This document shows, one piece after another, positions 47,386 through 56,856 of a DNA stretch of 64,000 bases. Below the pieces are notes generated by a model that was not told the DNA's origin, made no database searches, and worked only from the letters and a program-made list of their open reading frames with translations. Every line of letters starts with the position of its first letter. The first letter of the stretch is position 1. This DNA comes from Lewinella sp. LCG006 (lineage in GTDB: Bacteria; Bacteroidota; Bacteroidia; Chitinophagales; Saprospiraceae). Both the position numbers and the translations under genes were made by a program. The stretch spans positions 4,372,501 through 4,436,500 of the forward strand of contig NZ_CP160680.1 of assembly GCF_040784935.1 (NCBI RefSeq). Reading direction: 5' to 3'.

Positions 47386-48669
47386 ATGAAAACACCCCCT
47401 ACTATAACCCGTTCAAAACGTTATTTACTCCGCTATCAGCAGATCAGGCAGTGGAGTTTACAATTGTGTGCGCCATTAAACCCTGAAGACTATGTGGTAC
47501 AACCCACAGGCGATGTGAGTCCACCAAAATGGCACTTAGGGCATACCACCTGGTTTTTTGAAAATTTCATTCTTCGGGAACATCTCGCAAATTACGAGCT
47601 TTTCGATGAACGGCTAAACTGGTTTTTTAATAGCTACTACGAGAGCCAGGGGCCGCGAATTTTACGGACCAACCGAGGTAATATGACGCGGCCGTCTACA
47701 GCCACCATTCTTGCTTACCGCGAATACGTTGATGAGCACCTCATTCAATTGTTGGACCAACACCAGACGACAGAGCTGCCAACGGAATTGGCACAACTGC
47801 TGGAGATAGGCCTCCAACACGAGCAGCAACACCAGGAATTATTGGTGACGGATATTAAATATATTCTGGGCACCAACCCACTTTACCCCGCCTACGATCA
47901 AGCAGAGAAGAAGTTTGACCATCAAAGTTTTTCTAAAGAATGGCTCCCGATGGAAGCAGGCCTCTATCAAATTGGCTACCAAGGGTATGATTTTTGTTGG
48001 GACAATGAACTGAGTAGACACCAGGTTTACCTGAACCGTTTCGCGCTTTCCAAAAGGTTGGTGACCAATCGGGAGTATCTGACCTTTATGGAAGATGGCG
48101 CTTATGAACGTTTTGAGCTTTGGCAGATGGAGGGCATTGAATGGGCTCGGCAATTAGACATCAAAGCCCCGCTGTACTGGTACGAAAAGGAGGGGACTTG
48201 GTACCATTATACCTTGCAAGGGCTGAGCCCTATTGATTTGGATGCCCCCGTTACGCACGTCAGCTTTTTTGAAGCGGATGCTTATGCGCGTTGGGCGGGG
48301 CATCGACTGCCTACAGAACAAGAGTGGGAAGTGGTTTGTCAACAACAACATCAAGAGATTCCCGCCGAGGGCAATTTCGTGGAAAACCAAAACTGGCGCC
48401 CCATCGCTCCCATTGATGATGCAGATGACCAGTTGTTAGGTAATGTTTGGGAATGGACCAATAGTGCCTACCTACCTTACCCTCGGTATCCAAGACCTGA
48501 AGGAGCATTAGGCGAGTACAATGGTAAATTTATGATCAACCAGATGGTACTGCGCGGAGGCTCCTGTGCTACGCCCCGTTCCCACATTAGGGCTACTTAT
48601 CGTAACTTTTTCCAAACGGATAAACGTTGGCAGTTTACGGGCATCCGCCTGGCCAAAGACCTTGATTAA
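47386..48669 (+). CDS. egtB: EgtB-type sulfoxide synthase of ergothioneine biosynthesis
   Basis: This 427-residue protein has an N-terminal DinB-like domain (about 10-160) carrying the iron histidines (KWHLGHTTWFFE; LQHEQQHQE with H145, H149, E151) and a C-terminal formylglycine-generating-enzyme-like domain (HRLPTEQEWE, GNVWEWTNSAY, VLRGGSC, GIRLAKD). EgtB joins trimethylhistidine to a cysteine donor using O2. No egtA or egtC is nearby, which favours a type that uses cysteine directly. It precedes egtD by 60 nt. Confidence 0.93.
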   Translation: MKTPPTITRSKRYLLRYQQIRQWSLQLCAPLNPEDYVVQPTGDVSPPKWHLGHTTWFFENFILREHLANYELFDERLNWFFNSYYESQGPRILRTNRGNMTRPSTATILAYREYVDEHLIQLLDQHQTTELPTELAQLLEIGLQHEQQHQELLVTDIKYILGTNPLYPAYDQAEKKFDHQSFSKEWLPMEAGLYQIGYQGYDFCWDNELSRHQVYLNRFALSKRLVTNREYLTFMEDGAYERFELWQMEGIEWARQLDIKAPLYWYEKEGTWYHYTLQGLSPIDLDAPVTHVSFFEADAYARWAGHRLPTEQEWEVVCQQQHQEIPAEGNFVENQNWRPIAPIDDADDQLLGNVWEWTNSAYLPYPRYPRPEGALGEYNGKFMINQMVLRGGSCATPRSHIRATYRNFFQTDKRWQFTGIRLAKDLD

Positions 48670-48729
48670 TAAGGCCTAGCATTAACAGCAGGAGAAGCTA
48701 CTATCCGTCTCAATTAATATTTTCAACCC

Positions 48730-49707
48730 ATGAATTCTATTTCCAGTCCTGTAATTACTGAAACCAGCACATTTGCTATTGATGTAGAAGAAGGCCTTAG
48801 CAAGTATCCAAAGCAGCTGTCGAGTAAATATTTTTATGATGCTGCTGGTGATCAACTTTTTCAGGACATCATGGCCATGCCTGAGTATTACCTCACCAAC
48901 TGTGAGTACGATATATTTACGCAACAAAAAGCGGCCATTCTTGAAGCTTTTGGGGAAGCACCTTTTGAGTTGATTGAATTAGGTGCTGGTGATGGTACCA
49001 AGACTAAAATCTTACTGGACTATTTCCTGCAACAGGAAGCAGACTTTACCTACCGGCCTATTGATATTTCGGGCAATGTTTTGACGCAATTGACAGCTGC
49101 TTGCGCTGAACAGTTCCCAAAATTAAAGGTCGATCCTGTAAAAGGAGATTACACCGAGGCCCTGGCCCAGATCAAACAAGAAGACAATCACCGTCGTAAA
49201 GTTGTCCTTTTCCTGGGAGGTAATATTGGTAATTTTCCTTTGCCCAATGCCAAGGTGTTCATCAAAGAATTGGCGATCTGCCTTTCTGCTGGTGATTTGT
49301 TATTAACGGGTTTTGATCTAAAGAAAGACCCCAAAATCGTGCAACTAGCTTACGATGACCCAGCAGGTATCACTGCCGCTTTCAACCTCAACCTTCTCAC
49401 CCGGATCAACAAGGAATTAGGGGGAGCATTCGACGTGGACAAATTCATGCACTGGGAAACTTATAATCCACTAAGTGGTGAAGCACGTAGCTACATCGTA
49501 AGCAAAGAAGAGCAATTGGTACAAATTGAACAATTGCAACTGAGTGTGCATTTTGAGGCCTGGGAAGCCATCGCGGTAGAAGTTTCCGCCAAATACAGCG
49601 AACGCGACATTATTGAGCTGGCGGAAGAAACGGGCTTTACCGTCAATCAGAATTTTGTAGATCCCAAAGCCTATTTTATGGATAGCCTTTGGGAGTTAAA
49701 AGTTTAA
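48730..49707 (+). CDS. egtD: EgtD-type L-histidine N-alpha-methyltransferase
   Basis: This 325-residue SAM-dependent enzyme has the EgtD pattern: LSSKYFYDAAGDQLFQDI, MPEYYLTNCEYDI, SAM loop LIELGAGDGTKTKIL (about 81-95), FLGGNIGNF, and a late SGEARSYIVSKEEQ. It makes hercynine (N-alpha-trimethylhistidine), the substrate of EgtB. With egtB it gives the two core steps of ergothioneine synthesis; the final C-S lyase (EgtE) is not in the window. Confidence 0.93.
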   Translation: MNSISSPVITETSTFAIDVEEGLSKYPKQLSSKYFYDAAGDQLFQDIMAMPEYYLTNCEYDIFTQQKAAILEAFGEAPFELIELGAGDGTKTKILLDYFLQQEADFTYRPIDISGNVLTQLTAACAEQFPKLKVDPVKGDYTEALAQIKQEDNHRRKVVLFLGGNIGNFPLPNAKVFIKELAICLSAGDLLLTGFDLKKDPKIVQLAYDDPAGITAAFNLNLLTRINKELGGAFDVDKFMHWETYNPLSGEARSYIVSKEEQLVQIEQLQLSVHFEAWEAIAVEVSAKYSERDIIELAEETGFTVNQNFVDPKAYFMDSLWELKV

Positions 49708-51524: not shown

Positions 51525-52598
51525 TTAAATCACCACATGATTAACCACCATATTGTACTGTACCGCTTCTGTCAGGTCTTTCAAATTGAAGTGCCCATAA
51601 GGAGCAGATCCGTAAGATTTCTGCCCCGTTTGTCCTGGTAGCTGACAGGTATTCTTACCGTAAACGATACATCCATAACCGACAATTTGATCCGCGGTTG
51701 ACCAAATACTGTAGCGATAAGCACCTTCGTAAGCGGAGGAACTGTTGAGGTCAACCAGGTAATCAGAAACACCATAAGGGCCATACCATCCCCACATGTA
51801 GCCAGGATAGAAGCCATTGACATCGTCGCAAGTAGGTACGCCACTGGCGTAGTAGCAACTTACCAAACCCTGGTTGGCCCCGGCAATACCAACGAAGGCA
51901 TCTACGCTGCTGGTTAGTGAACTACCGACGTAGTAAGTGCCACCATCGTTAGGATCGTAGCCGTAGCCACCTTTTACGGCCTTGCGGCCCAGTGTCACAC
52001 CCATCGAGTGGCCAATAATATCCACTTTACTCGCACCAGTGTAGGCCTTAACCGCCTCGATAAACTTACGGATGCGCATTACATTTTCTTTGGAATGGTA
52101 GTTGTTGGCCGCACTGGAAGCATCCGCATCTCCCCAGGTAATGGCGTATAATTCTGCTTCAGTATAGCCCTGGCTGAGGAAATAATTCAAGGACTCCGTC
52201 CAGCCGCTTTGTCCAAATTGCGTACCCACTGCTTTGTCGGAATTGCCATGGATAAAGATCACGGGCTGTTTCGTCACGGGAGTACTGTTACTCGTCTTCC
52301 CACCATAGCTATCACCTACAATATCGGTACGAGAAAAATTATAACTACCATAACCATTCGCAGCTAGCCAGCTTTGGAAATGAGGCGTAAGCGTAGCACC
52401 AGTTGGTACTGATCGGCCTTCGGAAGGTGCGGACAATGCCCTTGTGTCGTAAGTGGAAAAGCTGCTTTCTTCCCAGTAAGGTTGCTCCGTACTCAAATCA
52501 GGGCCAGTTCGCTCATTCGTTTCTTCGGGCTTTTCGCAAGAGACGAGCATGAGCAGGAGAAAAGCTAAGCCAATTTGTAGTTGTTTAGTGTAAAACAT
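51525..52598 (-). CDS. Lipase-like alpha/beta hydrolase lipoprotein
   Basis: This 357-residue protein has a lipoprotein signal (LLLMLVSC, Cys21), an acidic/Ser-rich linker, and an alpha/beta hydrolase domain: VIFIHGNSDKAVGTQFG (oxyanion region), nucleophile in VDIIGHSMGVTLGRKA, and a late His in APYGHFNL. The pattern fits class-2 lipases and related extracellular esterases or polyester depolymerases. It is expected on the outer membrane. It is flanked by long spacers and probably monocistronic; the ~264 nt beyond its start hold nothing I can name. Confidence 0.83.
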   Translation of the reverse strand: MFYTKQLQIGLAFLLLMLVSCEKPEETNERTGPDLSTEQPYWEESSFSTYDTRALSAPSEGRSVPTGATLTPHFQSWLAANGYGSYNFSRTDIVGDSYGGKTSNSTPVTKQPVIFIHGNSDKAVGTQFGQSGWTESLNYFLSQGYTEAELYAITWGDADASSAANNYHSKENVMRIRKFIEAVKAYTGASKVDIIGHSMGVTLGRKAVKGGYGYDPNDGGTYYVGSSLTSSVDAFVGIAGANQGLVSCYYASGVPTCDDVNGFYPGYMWGWYGPYGVSDYLVDLNSSSAYEGAYRYSIWSTADQIVGYGCIVYGKNTCQLPGQTGQKSYGSAPYGHFNLKDLTEAVQYNMVVNHVVI

Positions 52599-52862: not shown

Positions 52863-53633
52863 TTAACGCAATACCTGCGCCTCAACACCTCTCCATAATT
52901 GATCGAATTCAGCATAGCCGTTGGCTAAAAGGAAGAGTTGCTGGTCTTTGCGCAACAGAACGGTAGGATACCCACGCACGCCCCATTGGCGATTCAGCTG
53001 GAATTCTGCCTTCGTGGCAGCGATGATTTCCTCGCTATGAAAAAGATCTAAGAACACTTTTAAATCTAATCCAAGGCGACTACAAATGGGTGCATAAAAA
53101 GCATTGGTAGCGGGGTCTTGGTTTTGTACATAAAAGTGGTGTTGCACCAACTCAAAGAAACGATGTTCTATTGCAGGGTTCATCTTACGGGCGGCTACTA
53201 CTGCCCGGCAACTGGGCTCGGTATCATAATTGAAGGATTCCCGCTCGAAAAGCGAATAGCCAAAAGGCTGGCCGCTGCGCTGGGTGACTTCCTCCCAATG
53301 GTGCTTGAGGAAGTTTTTAAACTGCTCGTTCCAGGGATCGCCCCCACCAGGCCGTAGGCCACCGACCACTATCCTGAAAGGAATGCCTTCTTGCGCTGCG
53401 CGCTGCTCTAGTTGATGCAGGGCTGGAGAAATACCCCAGCACCAGGAACACATCGGGTCGCCCACGTAAATAATTTCTACCCCTTCTTTTTGCTCAACGG
53501 CAAGATTGTCGCTATCTACTTCAGGAATCGTACACAGACCAGTTTCCGGGTCGCAAAAGAAAGGTACATCAGCTTGGGCGTTACTCATGATCAGGCAAGA
53601 ATTAAAAAGTAGGATTAGTAAGAAAAACCTCAT
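52863..53633 (-). CDS. Exported DsbA-family thioredoxin-fold protein
   Basis: This 256-residue protein has a signal peptide (ending SNAQA), a short segment with two extra cysteines (FFCDPETGLCTIP), then a DsbA-like fold with active site C62-SW-C65 (DPMCSWCWGISPAL), and the helical insert (FKNFLKHHWEEVTQRSG) plus RGYPTVLL with the cis-proline. The CSWC type is close to FrnE/DsbA-like proteins with a C-W-G-I context. It likely acts on disulfides in the periplasm. It lies upstream of, but apart from, the DUF202-cytochrome group. Confidence 0.86.
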   Translation of the reverse strand: MRFFLLILLFNSCLIMSNAQADVPFFCDPETGLCTIPEVDSDNLAVEQKEGVEIIYVGDPMCSWCWGISPALHQLEQRAAQEGIPFRIVVGGLRPGGGDPWNEQFKNFLKHHWEEVTQRSGQPFGYSLFERESFNYDTEPSCRAVVAARKMNPAIEHRFFELVQHHFYVQNQDPATNAFYAPICSRLGLDLKVFLDLFHSEEIIAATKAEFQLNRQWGVRGYPTVLLRKDQQLFLLANGYAEFDQLWRGVEAQVLR

Positions 53634-53717: not shown

Positions 53718-53981
53718 TTACTCGCCTTCTCTTGTTTCGATCTTTTTCAAAAAGGTCCGTACCCGGTAAAGTCGGTAAACACCAATCATTAAGACCAAAG
53801 GAGAGAGAATGACCAGTCCTATCCCGAGGCTGTGAATTTCCTGAAGGATTTCCAGCTTCATCACCGCAAAGCCACTGCTCAGAAACACCATGAAGGTTCT
53901 GAAGTAAGCCAGGAAGGTGCGCTCGTTGGCCATTTTGGTGCGTTCAAGTGCGAGTAGGTCGGTATTATTTAGATTTGCCAT
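53718..53981 (-). CDS. DUF202 small membrane protein
   Basis: This 87-residue protein has the DUF202 signature LALERTKMANERTFLAYFRT followed by two membrane helices (about 29-47 and 52-68). Members are inner-membrane proteins of unknown function (YidH-like). It is the last gene, 9 nt after the cytochrome gene, of the sterol desaturase-sulfite dehydrogenase-cytochrome operon. Confidence 0.88.
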   Translation of the reverse strand: MANLNNTDLLALERTKMANERTFLAYFRTFMVFLSSGFAVMKLEILQEIHSLGIGLVILSPLVLMIGVYRLYRVRTFLKKIETREGE

Positions 53982-53990
53982 TGTTGTATC

Positions 53991-54476
53991 TTAATCCAAT
54001 TCCAATATATACCATTCTATCGCCGCCACTTCGAGGTTAGCACGGCGGCCAATTTCTTCGGGCGCATAATTTTTTGCCAAATAGCTGATGATTGGCGCTT
54101 CGTTGGCTCCTAAATCCCAAAGACCTTGGGTAGACTGCATCCAGCGAATCATCTGGGTCCAGCCTTCTTGGGTAGCTTTGTTTTGGGTGACTAACTTGGC
54201 CGAATGGCAAGCGGTACAGGTAGCCCTGACCAGTTCAAAACCTTCGTCGTAGATCAAGCCTGTGGGGACATGAATACCATTGACAATCTCATCTTCCAGT
54301 GATGCGCTCTGATTGGGCTGGGCTGCCTTCTGCTGCTCAGTGATTTGAGGTGCCGGAGTAAATAAGGATGCCAATTGATCCCCAGCGAGTAGGTAAACAA
54401 AGAAGACTATACAAGCCGCTAAAGCGAGATGGAACAAGAGTAAAAGTGGCCGAAAATCTACGGGTTGTTTTTTCAT
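53991..54476 (-). CDS. Monoheme cytochrome c, probable electron acceptor of the sulfite dehydrogenase
   Basis: This 161-residue protein has one N-terminal membrane helix (about 12-31), a Pro/Gln-rich linker and a C-terminal heme domain with C87-TA-CH91 and candidate methionine ligands in WTQMIRWMQ. It overlaps the end of the molybdoenzyme gene by 4 nt, the arrangement seen for SorA-SorB type sulfite dehydrogenases, so it likely takes electrons from that enzyme in the periplasm. Confidence 0.85.
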   Translation of the reverse strand: MKKQPVDFRPLLLLFHLALAACIVFFVYLLAGDQLASLFTPAPQITEQQKAAQPNQSASLEDEIVNGIHVPTGLIYDEGFELVRATCTACHSAKLVTQNKATQEGWTQMIRWMQSTQGLWDLGANEAPIISYLAKNYAPEEIGRRANLEVAAIEWYILELD

Positions 54477-55801
54477 CCGCTCACAACTTTAATGGCAATC
54501 CGGTGGCAGGCATTATTGAGGTAACCACGTGGGTTCCAGCCGGGTACCAACATGGGTTGCGTAGTGCCTGTAGCATCCGTAGCACGTACCCATACCTCGT
54601 AATAACCGGCTTGGGGGAAGTTAACCTTAGCATTGAAATGCTGCCAGGCGTAGCGATTCGCTGGTGGCTCAATGACACAGGCCTGCCAGTTGGCACCAAA
54701 ATCAATGGAAAAATCTACCCTTGTAATCCGCTCCGTTGCCGTCCAGGCATGGCCACGAATCGGCAGTTGCTGTCCGAGGCGGATGGTAGCTCCCGTCTTC
54801 GGGAAAGTAAGTAAGGACTTGACGGGCATTTCTTCGATAATGCACATGTCTTTGTCTTCTACCTTGCTGCCAGGAGGCACGGGTTGGCATGGCATCCGGT
54901 AGGATTGCCCGGTCATTTTTTCACCATCGTGAACCTGATTGCGGATGACGATTTTAGAAAGCCATTTTCCCGAACATGAGGCCGGATAACCTCCGAATAC
55001 CAGGCGTAGTGGATAGCCATTGAGTAGTGGAATATCCTTGCCGTTCATGGCCCAGGCGATCAGACTTTCCTCTTCCAGGGCTTTCGCGATGGGTACTCCA
55101 CGGGAAATTACGACCTTATTAGGATCGCCAGACAAGTGGGTGTCTTGGCCGTAATAGCCGATATAAACCGCGTTGTTGCGAATGCCTACATCCTGCAAAA
55201 CGTCTTTAAGTCGAACCCCCGTCCAGTTGGCACAACCTACTGCGCCGGTCGACCACTGGTTGCCTTTGGCGGGAGGATTGAATTCTTTGCGGCCATTGCC
55301 ACCACATTCGAGCGTAAGCTGGTAGGTATAGTGCTTAAACTTGCTTTTTAGTTCGGCCAGCGTATAGGTCTTCTGCTGATTGGCAGATTCTCCCTCGATG
55401 GTCAATGTCCAGTTTTCCAGCTTGATGTCTGCAGGGGGAATGCCGTTGTTGCGAACAAAAAAGAGCTCATTAGGCGTCACCCTGTCATCCAACAGATGGG
55501 GAGGCGTTTCGGCGTTGACGGGCCGGTCATTTAATACGACTAGTCCAGGATGCTTGCCTGGTAGTTGGAAAGGTTCGTCGGAATGGGCCAAGCCGGCAGG
55601 AATCATCCCCATGGGGAAGTTTTTGGCAAAGACCATTTTACTCCCCAATGCTAAACTCATTGCTGCCAGGGCACTTTTATGGAGAAATCCGCGCCGGGAG
55701 TTCGGCATGCCTACTCTTCCCCACAGCTGGCGTTCTGCTTCGGTGGGGTCTTCGTCATACCATTCGTGTAAACCCTTTTTTTGGTGATCTTTAGTTGACA
55801 T
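54473..55801 (-). CDS. Sulfite-oxidase-family molybdoenzyme (SorA/SoxC-like)
   Basis: This 442-residue protein has a Tat leader (PNSRRGFLHKSALAAMSL, Arg36-Arg37), a molybdopterin domain with the Mo-binding cysteine C166 (LTLECGGNGR), a conserved GYPLRLVFGGYPAS region and a C-terminal Ig-like dimer domain (PIRGHAWTATERITRVDFS). Family members oxidise sulfite to sulfate in the periplasm. The ATG at 55801 (MSTKDHQ) is favoured; an upstream frame would overlap the preceding gene. No soxXYZ genes are present, so sulfite detoxification or taurine/sulfonate breakdown is more likely than full Sox oxidation. Confidence 0.9.
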   Translation of the reverse strand: MSTKDHQKKGLHEWYDEDPTEAERQLWGRVGMPNSRRGFLHKSALAAMSLALGSKMVFAKNFPMGMIPAGLAHSDEPFQLPGKHPGLVVLNDRPVNAETPPHLLDDRVTPNELFFVRNNGIPPADIKLENWTLTIEGESANQQKTYTLAELKSKFKHYTYQLTLECGGNGRKEFNPPAKGNQWSTGAVGCANWTGVRLKDVLQDVGIRNNAVYIGYYGQDTHLSGDPNKVVISRGVPIAKALEEESLIAWAMNGKDIPLLNGYPLRLVFGGYPASCSGKWLSKIVIRNQVHDGEKMTGQSYRMPCQPVPPGSKVEDKDMCIIEEMPVKSLLTFPKTGATIRLGQQLPIRGHAWTATERITRVDFSIDFGANWQACVIEPPANRYAWQHFNAKVNFPQAGYYEVWVRATDATGTTQPMLVPGWNPRGYLNNACHRIAIKVVSG

Positions 55802-55809
55802 TAAGTTGC

Positions 55810-56856
55810 TTACTTGTTGGGCGGTTCTTGTTCCGTTTTCCCAAAGCCATGAATTGATTGGGTAGCAAAACCATGAGGAAAAGACTCTACGCCAGGAAAA
55901 CCCAATCTGATATCCTGTCCGTTGTGCGGAATATAAGCTGTTTTGAAAATATAATCCCAAATCGCTAAAGTAATCCCAAAATTGACGCCAAAATGCCGCT
56001 CCTTAGGCAACTCATAAGCGTGGTGCCAAATGTGCATCTCCGGACTATTGAAGAGGTATTTCATCAAGTTACCCAATAGCAGACTTCCAGCTAAAGCTGA
56101 ACCCAGTACAATGCCCAAACTCGTAATTAGTGTAGGATTTTGAACCATACTGACATCCAGTAAACCTTGCGAGATGACAATACCCAAAAGGGCCCCTAAT
56201 ATTCCTCCCGTAAGATAACCACTCACGCTGATATTGGAGTGGTTGTAATGCCCCCAGGCGAGGGTGAAAATGTGGATGATAAAGAAATCATATAAGCCAA
56301 TCCCCAACAATGCTAGCGGAATATACTCTAGGGTTCGGTAAACAACGTTCTCCATCCAGTGGTACCGTAAATGGGCGGCAAAGCCCATCTCTTCTACCGA
56401 ATGGTGTACTTTATGAAACTCCCACAGCCGATCAGAACGGTGTAACAAGCGGTGAATCCACCACTGCACAAAATCACGGACCACAAAGCCAATCAGAAGA
56501 ATGGCCCATAGCGGAAAATCATTCAGTGGATTTTGTGCTTGAAGATCAAATCCTCCCGTTATGCTCTTGATACCATCATTGAAGAGGTTGACAACGACAT
56601 TGGAGGCAGCGCTGTAAATAATCAGTGAAAAAAAGAAGAAATTAAAAAACATGTAAAAAGCATCCAGCCAGAAATCTTTGCGCAAAATCGCTTGCTTTTT
56701 CCGCCAGGGAATGACAACCTCTAGCAGTAAAAAGAATACAGAGACGGCAATCAGCCAATAAAAGTAATTGCCCCAACCAGGGTGCGTGATTTCGTGCCAG
56801 AGATAATTGCCATAGCCCGTATAGCCCTGAATGAATAAATCCCAGTATTTTTCCAC
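55810..56856 (-). CDS. Sterol desaturase/fatty acid hydroxylase family membrane protein
   Basis: This 348-residue protein has six or so membrane helices and three histidine clusters: FVQWWIHRLLHRSD, EFHKVHHSVEEMG and MHIWHHAYELP. It should be a di-iron lipid hydroxylase or desaturase in the inner membrane. It lies 8 nt upstream of the sulfite dehydrogenase gene on the same strand and so heads that operon. A functional link between lipid oxidation and sulfite oxidation is not obvious. It is a second, longer member of the superfamily in this window (compare 42017-42664). Confidence 0.87.
   Translation of the reverse strand: MEKYWDLFIQGYTGYGNYLWHEITHPGWGNYFYWLIAVSVFFLLLEVVIPWRKKQAILRKDFWLDAFYMFFNFFFFSLIIYSAASNVVVNLFNDGIKSITGGFDLQAQNPLNDFPLWAILLIGFVVRDFVQWWIHRLLHRSDRLWEFHKVHHSVEEMGFAAHLRYHWMENVVYRTLEYIPLALLGIGLYDFFIIHIFTLAWGHYNHSNISVSGYLTGGILGALLGIVISQGLLDVSMVQNPTLITSLGIVLGSALAGSLLLGNLMKYLFNSPEMHIWHHAYELPKERHFGVNFGITLAIWDYIFKTAYIPHNGQDIRLGFPGVESFPHGFATQSIHGFGKTEQEPPNK

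Follow-up and report, generated by a model that had tools for sequence, protein, structure and literature searches.

The stretch of DNA analyzed here, which we call the window, comprises 64,000 nucleotides (nt) of Lewinella sp. LCG006 (NZ_CP160680.1, positions 4,372,501-4,436,500), whose 7.5-Mb genome is a single contig. Positions 53718-56856 of the window carry four genes (Table 1), which encode, in the direction of transcription, a protein of the sterol desaturase family (SD), a sulfite-oxidase-family enzyme (SOR), a cytochrome c (CYT), and a small DUF202 membrane protein. The original prediction, made from this DNA alone, described these genes in the same order with gaps of 8, -4, and 9 nt, and all four genes and all three gaps are confirmed. 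Its names for the first two products, lipid hydroxylase and sulfite dehydrogenase, rest on homology. The sulfite dehydrogenase itself is ordinary; of greater interest is that a whole clade of the sterol desaturase family in Bacteroidota, to which SD belongs, apparently has its place in sulfur metabolism.

Table 1. Genes of the putative operon and the next gene downstream (window coordinates; Pfam scores with cut-offs where given).
Feature	Position	Strand	Product	Pfam match
SD	55810..56856	-	348 aa, GTG start	PF04116, 78.6 bits (cut-off 31)
SOR	54473..55801	-	442 aa, ATG start	PF00174, 161.7 bits (cut-off 24); PF03404, 75.3 bits (cut-off 22.7)
CYT	53991..54476	-	161-aa cytochrome c, one CxxCH, hydrophobic N-terminus	
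DUF202	53718..53981	-	small membrane protein	PF02656, 52.7 bits
DsbA-family gene	52863..53633	-	thioredoxin-fold protein, signal-like N-terminus	PF01323, 44.4 bits

Conservation of SD beside SOR in Bacteroidota

Relatives were collected from three sets of genomes. The family sample consists of 100 genomes of the window's family; 37 have an SOR match, and 33 of these matches, besides the window's own, are strong (>400 bits). The class sample has 295 genomes, with SD matches at E <= 1e-40 in 54 and SOR matches at E <= 1e-60 in 15; one genome (G080) belongs to both samples. A scan of named genomes gave at least 592 confirmed SOR relatives, from which we retained the 80 best loci; three in which the gene caller found no SOR were dropped, and the counts below use the remaining 77 (41 from Bacteroidota and 36 others).

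Of the 33 family genomes with a strong SOR match, 11 have SD adjoining SOR or its CYT: nine cases were seen in fetched loci, one (G095) by coordinates, and one (G076) on a second contig that starts in the SOR end. Two of the 11 (G052 and G076) have the short form of SD, which is described below. The class sample has 14 SOR genomes besides the window's, and coordinates place SD within 2.5 kb of SOR and on its strand in seven of them (G080, G100, G108, G161, G184, G290, and G389), which represent five families. Among the named loci, the two genes are adjacent in 14 of 41 from Bacteroidota (two of them in one metagenome-assembled genome [MAG]) and in none of the 36 others. Portibacter marinus, a named isolate, has SD immediately upstream of SOR (L138). 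In relatives, SD and SOR are thus neighbors far more often than chance would give, and the outcome that would have refuted the original prediction, a sterol desaturase gene not conserved beside the sulfite dehydrogenase, is not what these genomes show. The class sample has both genes in 11 genomes, so that SD is found in 11 of 15 SOR genomes and in 43 of 280 others (p = 2e-6). The p-values for co-occurrence and for rhodanese linkage given here ignore the relatedness of genomes, and close relatives are over-represented in the samples.

Two gene orders occur: among 120 SOR loci, SD precedes SOR in 11 and follows it in 14, a count in which the gene caller missed the window's own SD. On a quick tree of these 120 SORs (111 distinct; 25 with SD, 21 of them distinct), the presence of an SD neighbor changes at least 19 times, losses included.

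Association of the SD clade with rhodaneses and sulfide oxidation genes

We fetched 100 SD loci, 60 from the family, chosen mostly away from SOR, and 40 from the class; neighbor counts cover 98 of them, the gene caller having lost SD in L161 and L200. To detect rhodaneses, we used a profile made from 19 short open reading frames of this type in the family loci. The same-strand upstream neighbor of SD is a rhodanese in 29 of 69 cases (13/39 in the family and 16/30 in the class), against a background of 12 rhodaneses among 571 genes located four or more positions from SD. Most of these upstream rhodaneses look exported, as 23 of the 29 have a hydrophobic N-terminus, and several have a lipobox-like cysteine. 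Counted on either strand and within two genes, a rhodanese is present in 42 of 98 SD loci, 36 of which have no SOR. The same profile found none in a control set of 20 loci with other PF04116 genes (paralogs), taken mostly from the same genomes and including one from the window's genome (42/98 versus 0/20, p = 6.5e-5).

Other genes also recur within five genes of SD in the 98 loci: persulfide dioxygenase-rhodanese genes in 8, TauE in 9, Crp/Fnr in 9, genes resembling sulfide:quinone oxidoreductase (SQR) in 7, thioredoxin in 6, and ArsR-like genes in 5. One representative was checked for each of the first five clusters, and the ArsR-like genes were recognized by eye; the SQR-like representative scores 246.9 bits against the type III SQR model, below its cut-off of 525. 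None of the five checked clusters has a match in the 20 paralog loci. Thus, the SD clade is linked to rhodaneses and sulfide oxidation genes independently of SOR, and the link is specific to this clade.

The link is closest in three fusion proteins, each of which combines two rhodanese domains and SD in one chain. The fusion from Crocinitomix (L141, 601 residues) is encoded divergently from an SOR-CYT pair, that of G076 (L194, 618 residues) directly after CYT, and the third comes from G325 (L318, 613 residues). Unfused genes appear in the order SOR-CYT-RHOD-SD (where RHOD denotes rhodanese) in five loci (L097, L101, L139, L242, and L278) and as RHOD-SD-SOR-CYT in two (L075 and L201); in the latter locus, which belongs to a congener of the window's organism (G062), a second rhodanese follows CYT, so that one stands on each side. 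On the SOR tree, we also tested with independent pairs whether SD and rhodanese neighbors of SOR go together: among 11 supported pairs, rhodanese differs in the same direction as SD in 4.3 and in the opposite direction in 0.4 on average, and the result (median p of 0.125) is not significant by itself.

Our literature searches, which covered open-licence PMC papers, found no report that links a sterol desaturase clade to rhodanese or sulfide oxidation. They found nothing joining sulfite dehydrogenase, Bacteroidetes, and sterol desaturase, or fatty acid hydroxylase and persulfide dioxygenase; nothing on the sterol desaturase family and sulfur in Bacteroidota, or on sulfonolipid biosynthesis together with cysteate and hydroxylase; and nothing joining Bacteroidetes, persulfide dioxygenase, sulfite oxidase, and rhodanese. 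Sterol desaturase and rhodanese were found together only for a green alga and lichen fungi, as judged by the listing.

Properties of the SD protein

SD has all three histidine motifs of its family (HRLLH, HKVHH, and HIWHH), and none of the nine histidines in these motifs varies among 112 sequences of the SD clade (some genomes being represented twice) and the 20 paralogs. SD is predicted to be a di-iron membrane enzyme. What sets the clade apart is a group of residues (His203, Glu169, Tyr173, Asn270, Trp51, Phe71, and Asn72) with frequencies of 0.99-1.00 in the clade and 0.00-0.15 in the paralogs; for His203 these are 0.99 and 0.00. Similarity to the OlsE model is weak (75.8 bits, cut-off 475). 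Searches of PDB sequences with SD alone and with a profile of 14 SD proteins found nothing relevant. Two AlphaFold models of SD proteins, the second of which is a short-form relative, have middling confidence (pLDDT 70.6 and 70.7), and Foldseek gave no match with E <= 0.001 for either. Only a second VIA-align comparison, of the second model, ranked the hydroxylase domain of Scs7p first, with weak Z scores of 5.2 and 5.0 over 172 residues (the next was 2.2), a match that taken alone would prove little. The loop at residues 51-61 is positively charged, which suggests that it faces the cytoplasm and that the N-terminus is exported; this topology fits the fusion to an exported rhodanese. In the long form of SD, approximately 50 additional hydrophobic residues (213-263) are present that the short form lacks; the long form is common in the window's family and was seen in a few other genomes (G184, G304, and G334).

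The sulfite-oxidase-family enzyme and its cytochrome

SOR, the sole PF00174 match in the window's genome, passes the cut-offs of both Pfam models. Its signal sequence contains the twin-arginine motif SRRGFL, in which R36 and R37 are invariant across 27 aligned members of the family, and SOR is therefore predicted to be exported by the twin-arginine translocation (Tat) pathway. Five residues, R117, C166, R171, W183, and Y301, are invariant in the 27 proteins and align with R138, C185, R190, W204, and Y322 of chicken sulfite oxidase, which, together with R450, are the molybdenum-ligand cysteine and the residues of the sulfite pocket; C166 corresponds to the ligand cysteine. At position 425, which corresponds to chicken R450, arginine is found in 7 of the 27 proteins, including the window's, and lysine in 20. 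Two further cysteines, C305 and C320, are lost together in L027 and L028, where both are lysine, and this joint loss suggests that they form a disulfide in the exported enzyme.

SOR remains below all equivalog cut-offs: it scores 255.9 bits against SorA (NF052245; cut-off 600), 199.7 against SorT (570), and 177.8 against SoxC (420). CYT, too, is below the cut-off of NCBIfam SorB (NF052246; 26 bits versus 93), and a PDB sequence search with it gave nothing relevant. A CYT relative lies beside SOR in 97 of 120 SOR loci, a count from which contig ends and the simple gene caller remove some, and CYT is the probable electron acceptor of SOR, distantly similar to SorB. Thus, the two proteins probably act like SorAB, a sulfite:cytochrome c oxidoreductase, yet their scores do not allow us to file them as SorAB. 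To judge by the encoded proteins, the four-gene operon very likely turns toxic sulfite into sulfate.

According to the titles of their records, SOR relatives come from Bacteroidota, Pseudomonadota, Campylobacterota, Nitrospirota, Calditrichota, Verrucomicrobiota, and Myxococcota, and one has no phylum given. A YeiH-family gene is located directly upstream of SOR in seven loci, all of them from Gammaproteobacteria (Pseudomonadota) by title; the representative of this cluster belongs to PF03601 and scores 144 bits against TIGR00698, below the cut-off of 232.6. In Salmonella, yeiH is needed for sulfite resistance (PMC12880088), and the position of its relatives upstream of SOR thus supports sulfite as the SOR substrate. 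A TauD-family gene is found two genes upstream of SOR in four loci.

Two groups of SOR relatives have other neighbors. In L098, L102, L109, and L113 (Alteromonas, Aliiglaciecola, and Paraglaciecola), an aldo-keto reductase, a TauD-family dioxygenase, and a YeiH-family gene precede SOR-CYT (representatives were checked), possibly as a cassette that converts sulfonate to sulfite and then to sulfate. Upstream of SOR-CYT on the same strand, urocanase-like genes occur in L112, L124, L134, and L135 (Woeseiaceae and other proteobacterial MAGs) and histidine ammonia-lyase in L112, L124, and L135; they form an unbroken run to SOR-CYT only in L135, and a GntR-like gene was seen by eye in L134 and L135. 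A possible role of these genes is the breakdown of a thiol-histidine such as ergothioneine.

Operon limits and neighboring genes

The original prediction inferred one transcript and a shared purpose from the short gaps. The recurrent adjacency of SD and SOR upholds this for SD, SOR, and CYT; DUF202 has no such support, as none of 122 other SOR loci has it beside SOR in a one-sequence query at E <= 1. DUF202 is a local addition to the operon, or a passenger in it, and the window operon may have lost a rhodanese and gained DUF202. Between the four genes, a search for terminator-like sites gave none on the minus strand; it found 5 sites in the region versus 5.8 in shuffled sequence and therefore proves little about the continuity of the operon. 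Upstream of SD, a GNAT gene diverges at a distance of 134 nt. Downstream, the DsbA-family gene follows DUF202 at 84 nt on the same strand; it could be cotranscribed with the four genes, its membership being uncertain. Among the other SOR loci, L007 alone has a DsbA relative next to the operon, and there it is on the opposite strand.

Further along, the window encodes a lipase with a signal-like N-terminus (51525-52598, minus strand; class-2 lipase domain, 211.7 bits) that has a distant PhaZ7-like score (103.4 bits, cut-off 450). Approximately 4 kb past the end of the operon, after a DUF427 gene, are the ergothioneine biosynthesis genes EgtB (552.7 bits, cut-off 360) and EgtD (293.1 bits, cut-off 290.9), at 47386-49704 on the plus strand.

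The source of sulfite

SQR, persulfide dioxygenase, rhodanese, and sulfite oxidase make up the sulfide oxidation route of heterotrophs and mitochondria. In the window's genome, four genes encode persulfide dioxygenase-rhodaneses that share 62-63% identity with the query, and another gene, directly after a DUF1641 gene, encodes a type III SQR that is 73% identical to one from an SD locus. Together with SOR, these genes allow the sequence sulfide to persulfide to sulfite to sulfate to be written in genes. Persulfide dioxygenase-rhodanese genes are present in 221 of the 295 class genomes (47/54 with SD versus 174/241 others, tallied by eye, p = 0.024), and because they are so common, their co-occurrence with SD says little.

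Elsewhere in the window's genome, one stretch (C1:1400000-1416000, L316) brings together two genes for persulfide dioxygenase-rhodaneses, two for small rhodaneses, one for a ferredoxin-NrfD-like protein, and some that by eye resemble those of cytochrome bd oxidase. A ferredoxin-NrfD-type protein also follows SD in L153.

The role of the operon and of SD

We think it probable that the operon carries out the terminal sulfite oxidation in sulfide/persulfide catabolism and that SD is an accessory membrane enzyme of this pathway. SOR, exported by Tat with its molybdenum cofactor, would oxidize sulfite to sulfate in the periplasm and pass the electrons to a membrane-anchored CYT, as the families and residues of these proteins suggest. 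The sulfite would come mainly from the cell's own SQR-persulfide dioxygenase route, for which the genes are present and the flux is presumed. SD, a member of a Bacteroidota clade whose genes are associated with mostly exported rhodaneses and with the sulfide/persulfide pathway, would be an inner-membrane enzyme whose substrate is connected with the handling of sulfane sulfur, and DUF202 would be a local passenger.

Several observations weigh against this assignment of SD. The window has no rhodanese among the 69 called genes of its 64 kb, and thus none in the operon, and 56 of the 98 SD loci have none within two genes. No SD is seen next door to SOR in 22 of the 33 strong SOR genomes, although contig ends hide some, and in the family sample the presence of the two genes is not significantly associated (SD in 29/34 SOR genomes versus 49/66 others, p = 0.31), because SD is common there. 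Since none of the 36 SOR loci not assigned to Bacteroidota has SD as a neighbor, sulfite oxidation as such does not depend on SD. Finally, all characterized SD relatives that we know of act on lipids or other hydrocarbons, not on sulfur.

The part of SD within the favored pathway can be specified in two ways. In the first, SD simply hydroxylates lipids, as its characterized relatives do, and the product serves to protect the membrane or to anchor the rhodanese at sites of reactive-sulfur handling; the link to sulfur is then regulatory or structural rather than chemical. On the one hand, the family assignment, the histidine motifs, the weak similarities to Scs7p and OlsE, and the occurrence of SD in many genomes without SOR speak for such a role. 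On the other hand, the 20 paralog loci have no rhodanese, SQR, TauE, Crp/Fnr, or persulfide dioxygenase neighbors, which makes the sulfur link specific to the SD clade, and the rhodanese-SD fusions suggest a link closer than shared regulation. We give this possibility slightly less than an even chance.

In the second, SD is a sulfur oxygenase, a membrane di-iron enzyme that supplies SOR with sulfite by oxidizing sulfane sulfur that is either lipophilic or bound to rhodanese. The orders SOR-CYT-RHOD-SD and RHOD-SD-SOR-CYT, the fusions, and the conserved residues specific to the clade, including His203, Glu169, and Asn270, are all consistent with this chemistry, which we nevertheless regard as unlikely: we know of no sulfur-oxidizing member of the fatty-acid-hydroxylase superfamily, the step is already covered by the persulfide dioxygenase genes in 47 of the 54 SD genomes, and the metal site of SD probably faces the cytoplasm, whereas the rhodanese is mostly exported. 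It is a bold and doubtful extension of the same idea that SD founds a branch of sterol desaturases that oxidizes sulfur instead of carbon, taking either sulfane sulfur from the exported or fused rhodanese or membrane-dissolved S8 or polysulfide to sulfite. SOR-CYT would then, just as tentatively, turn this sulfite into sulfate and deliver the electrons to the respiratory chain.

A third explanation is that of the original prediction, in which SD takes part in sulfonolipid metabolism and SOR removes the sulfite released by sulfonolipid turnover. The window's genome does encode a cysteate fatty acyltransferase (628 bits to 28eh and 575 to SulA, 7u7h, versus 222 to serine palmitoyltransferase; SulA features for comparison from PMC9304779), so the organism may make sulfonolipids, as had been supposed. 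At a threshold of E <= 1e-100, which admits intermediate relatives (down to 40% identity in G074), matches to this enzyme co-occur mildly with SD in the family sample (56/78 SD genomes versus 9/22 others, p = 0.011), a point in favor of a lipid role of SD. However, such matches are nearly ubiquitous in the class (256 of 295 genomes), occur in 65 of the 100 family genomes, are not associated there with SOR (p = 0.66), and are missing from 2 of the 12 genomes in which SD adjoins SOR (the window's included) and from 9 of 29 with both genes. A relative of the enzyme is encoded in 1 of 100 SD loci and, weakly, in 1 of 123 SOR loci; the neighbors of SD are instead rhodaneses, persulfide dioxygenases, SQR, and TauE. 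Moreover, sulfite is a precursor of sulfonolipids rather than a known product of their breakdown. It is thus the distribution and neighborhood, not the absence of the gene, that make us set this source of sulfite aside as very improbable. Least credible of all is that the SD-SOR pairing reflects hitchhiking or inheritance from a few ancestral events: the lack of a family-wide association and the over-representation of close relatives would fit, but the two gene orders, the repeated changes on the tree, and the spread over five families in the class sample are hard to reconcile with it.

If the favored assignment of SD to the sulfide pathway is true, genes of the SD clade are wrongly characterized by an annotation based on lipids, and the oxidation of sulfide or sulfane sulfur in the phylum includes a membrane step not described before. 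For biochemical work, the rhodanese-SD fusion proteins are a convenient starting point.

Comparison with known systems

The SOR-CYT pair resembles SorAB (PDB 2blf, from Starkeya novella) in that a sulfite-oxidase-family molybdenum subunit and a one-heme cytochrome c are encoded by adjacent genes and both are apparently exported; it differs in that both proteins score far below the equivalog cut-offs and the hydrophobic N-terminus of the cytochrome is long. SOR also has R-N-N in place of the R-N-H of chicken sulfite oxidase. The sulfite resistance system of Salmonella, YeiE/YeiH (PMC12880088), is echoed by the YeiH-family genes that precede SOR in the seven Pseudomonadota loci, whereas the window operon has no such gene. 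SD shares the Pfam model and histidine motifs of the PF04116 superfamily (Scs7p/FA2H, C5 sterol desaturase, and OlsE) and the best fold match, a weak one, is to Scs7p; on the other hand, its score against OlsE is far below the cut-off, and the residues specific to its clade, the rhodanese neighbors, and the fusions distinguish it. Genes for the enzyme types of the sulfide oxidation route (PMC12345210) are present in the window's genome. There, however, they are scattered, and in relatives an additional membrane protein of the sterol desaturase family accompanies the rhodanese and sulfite steps.

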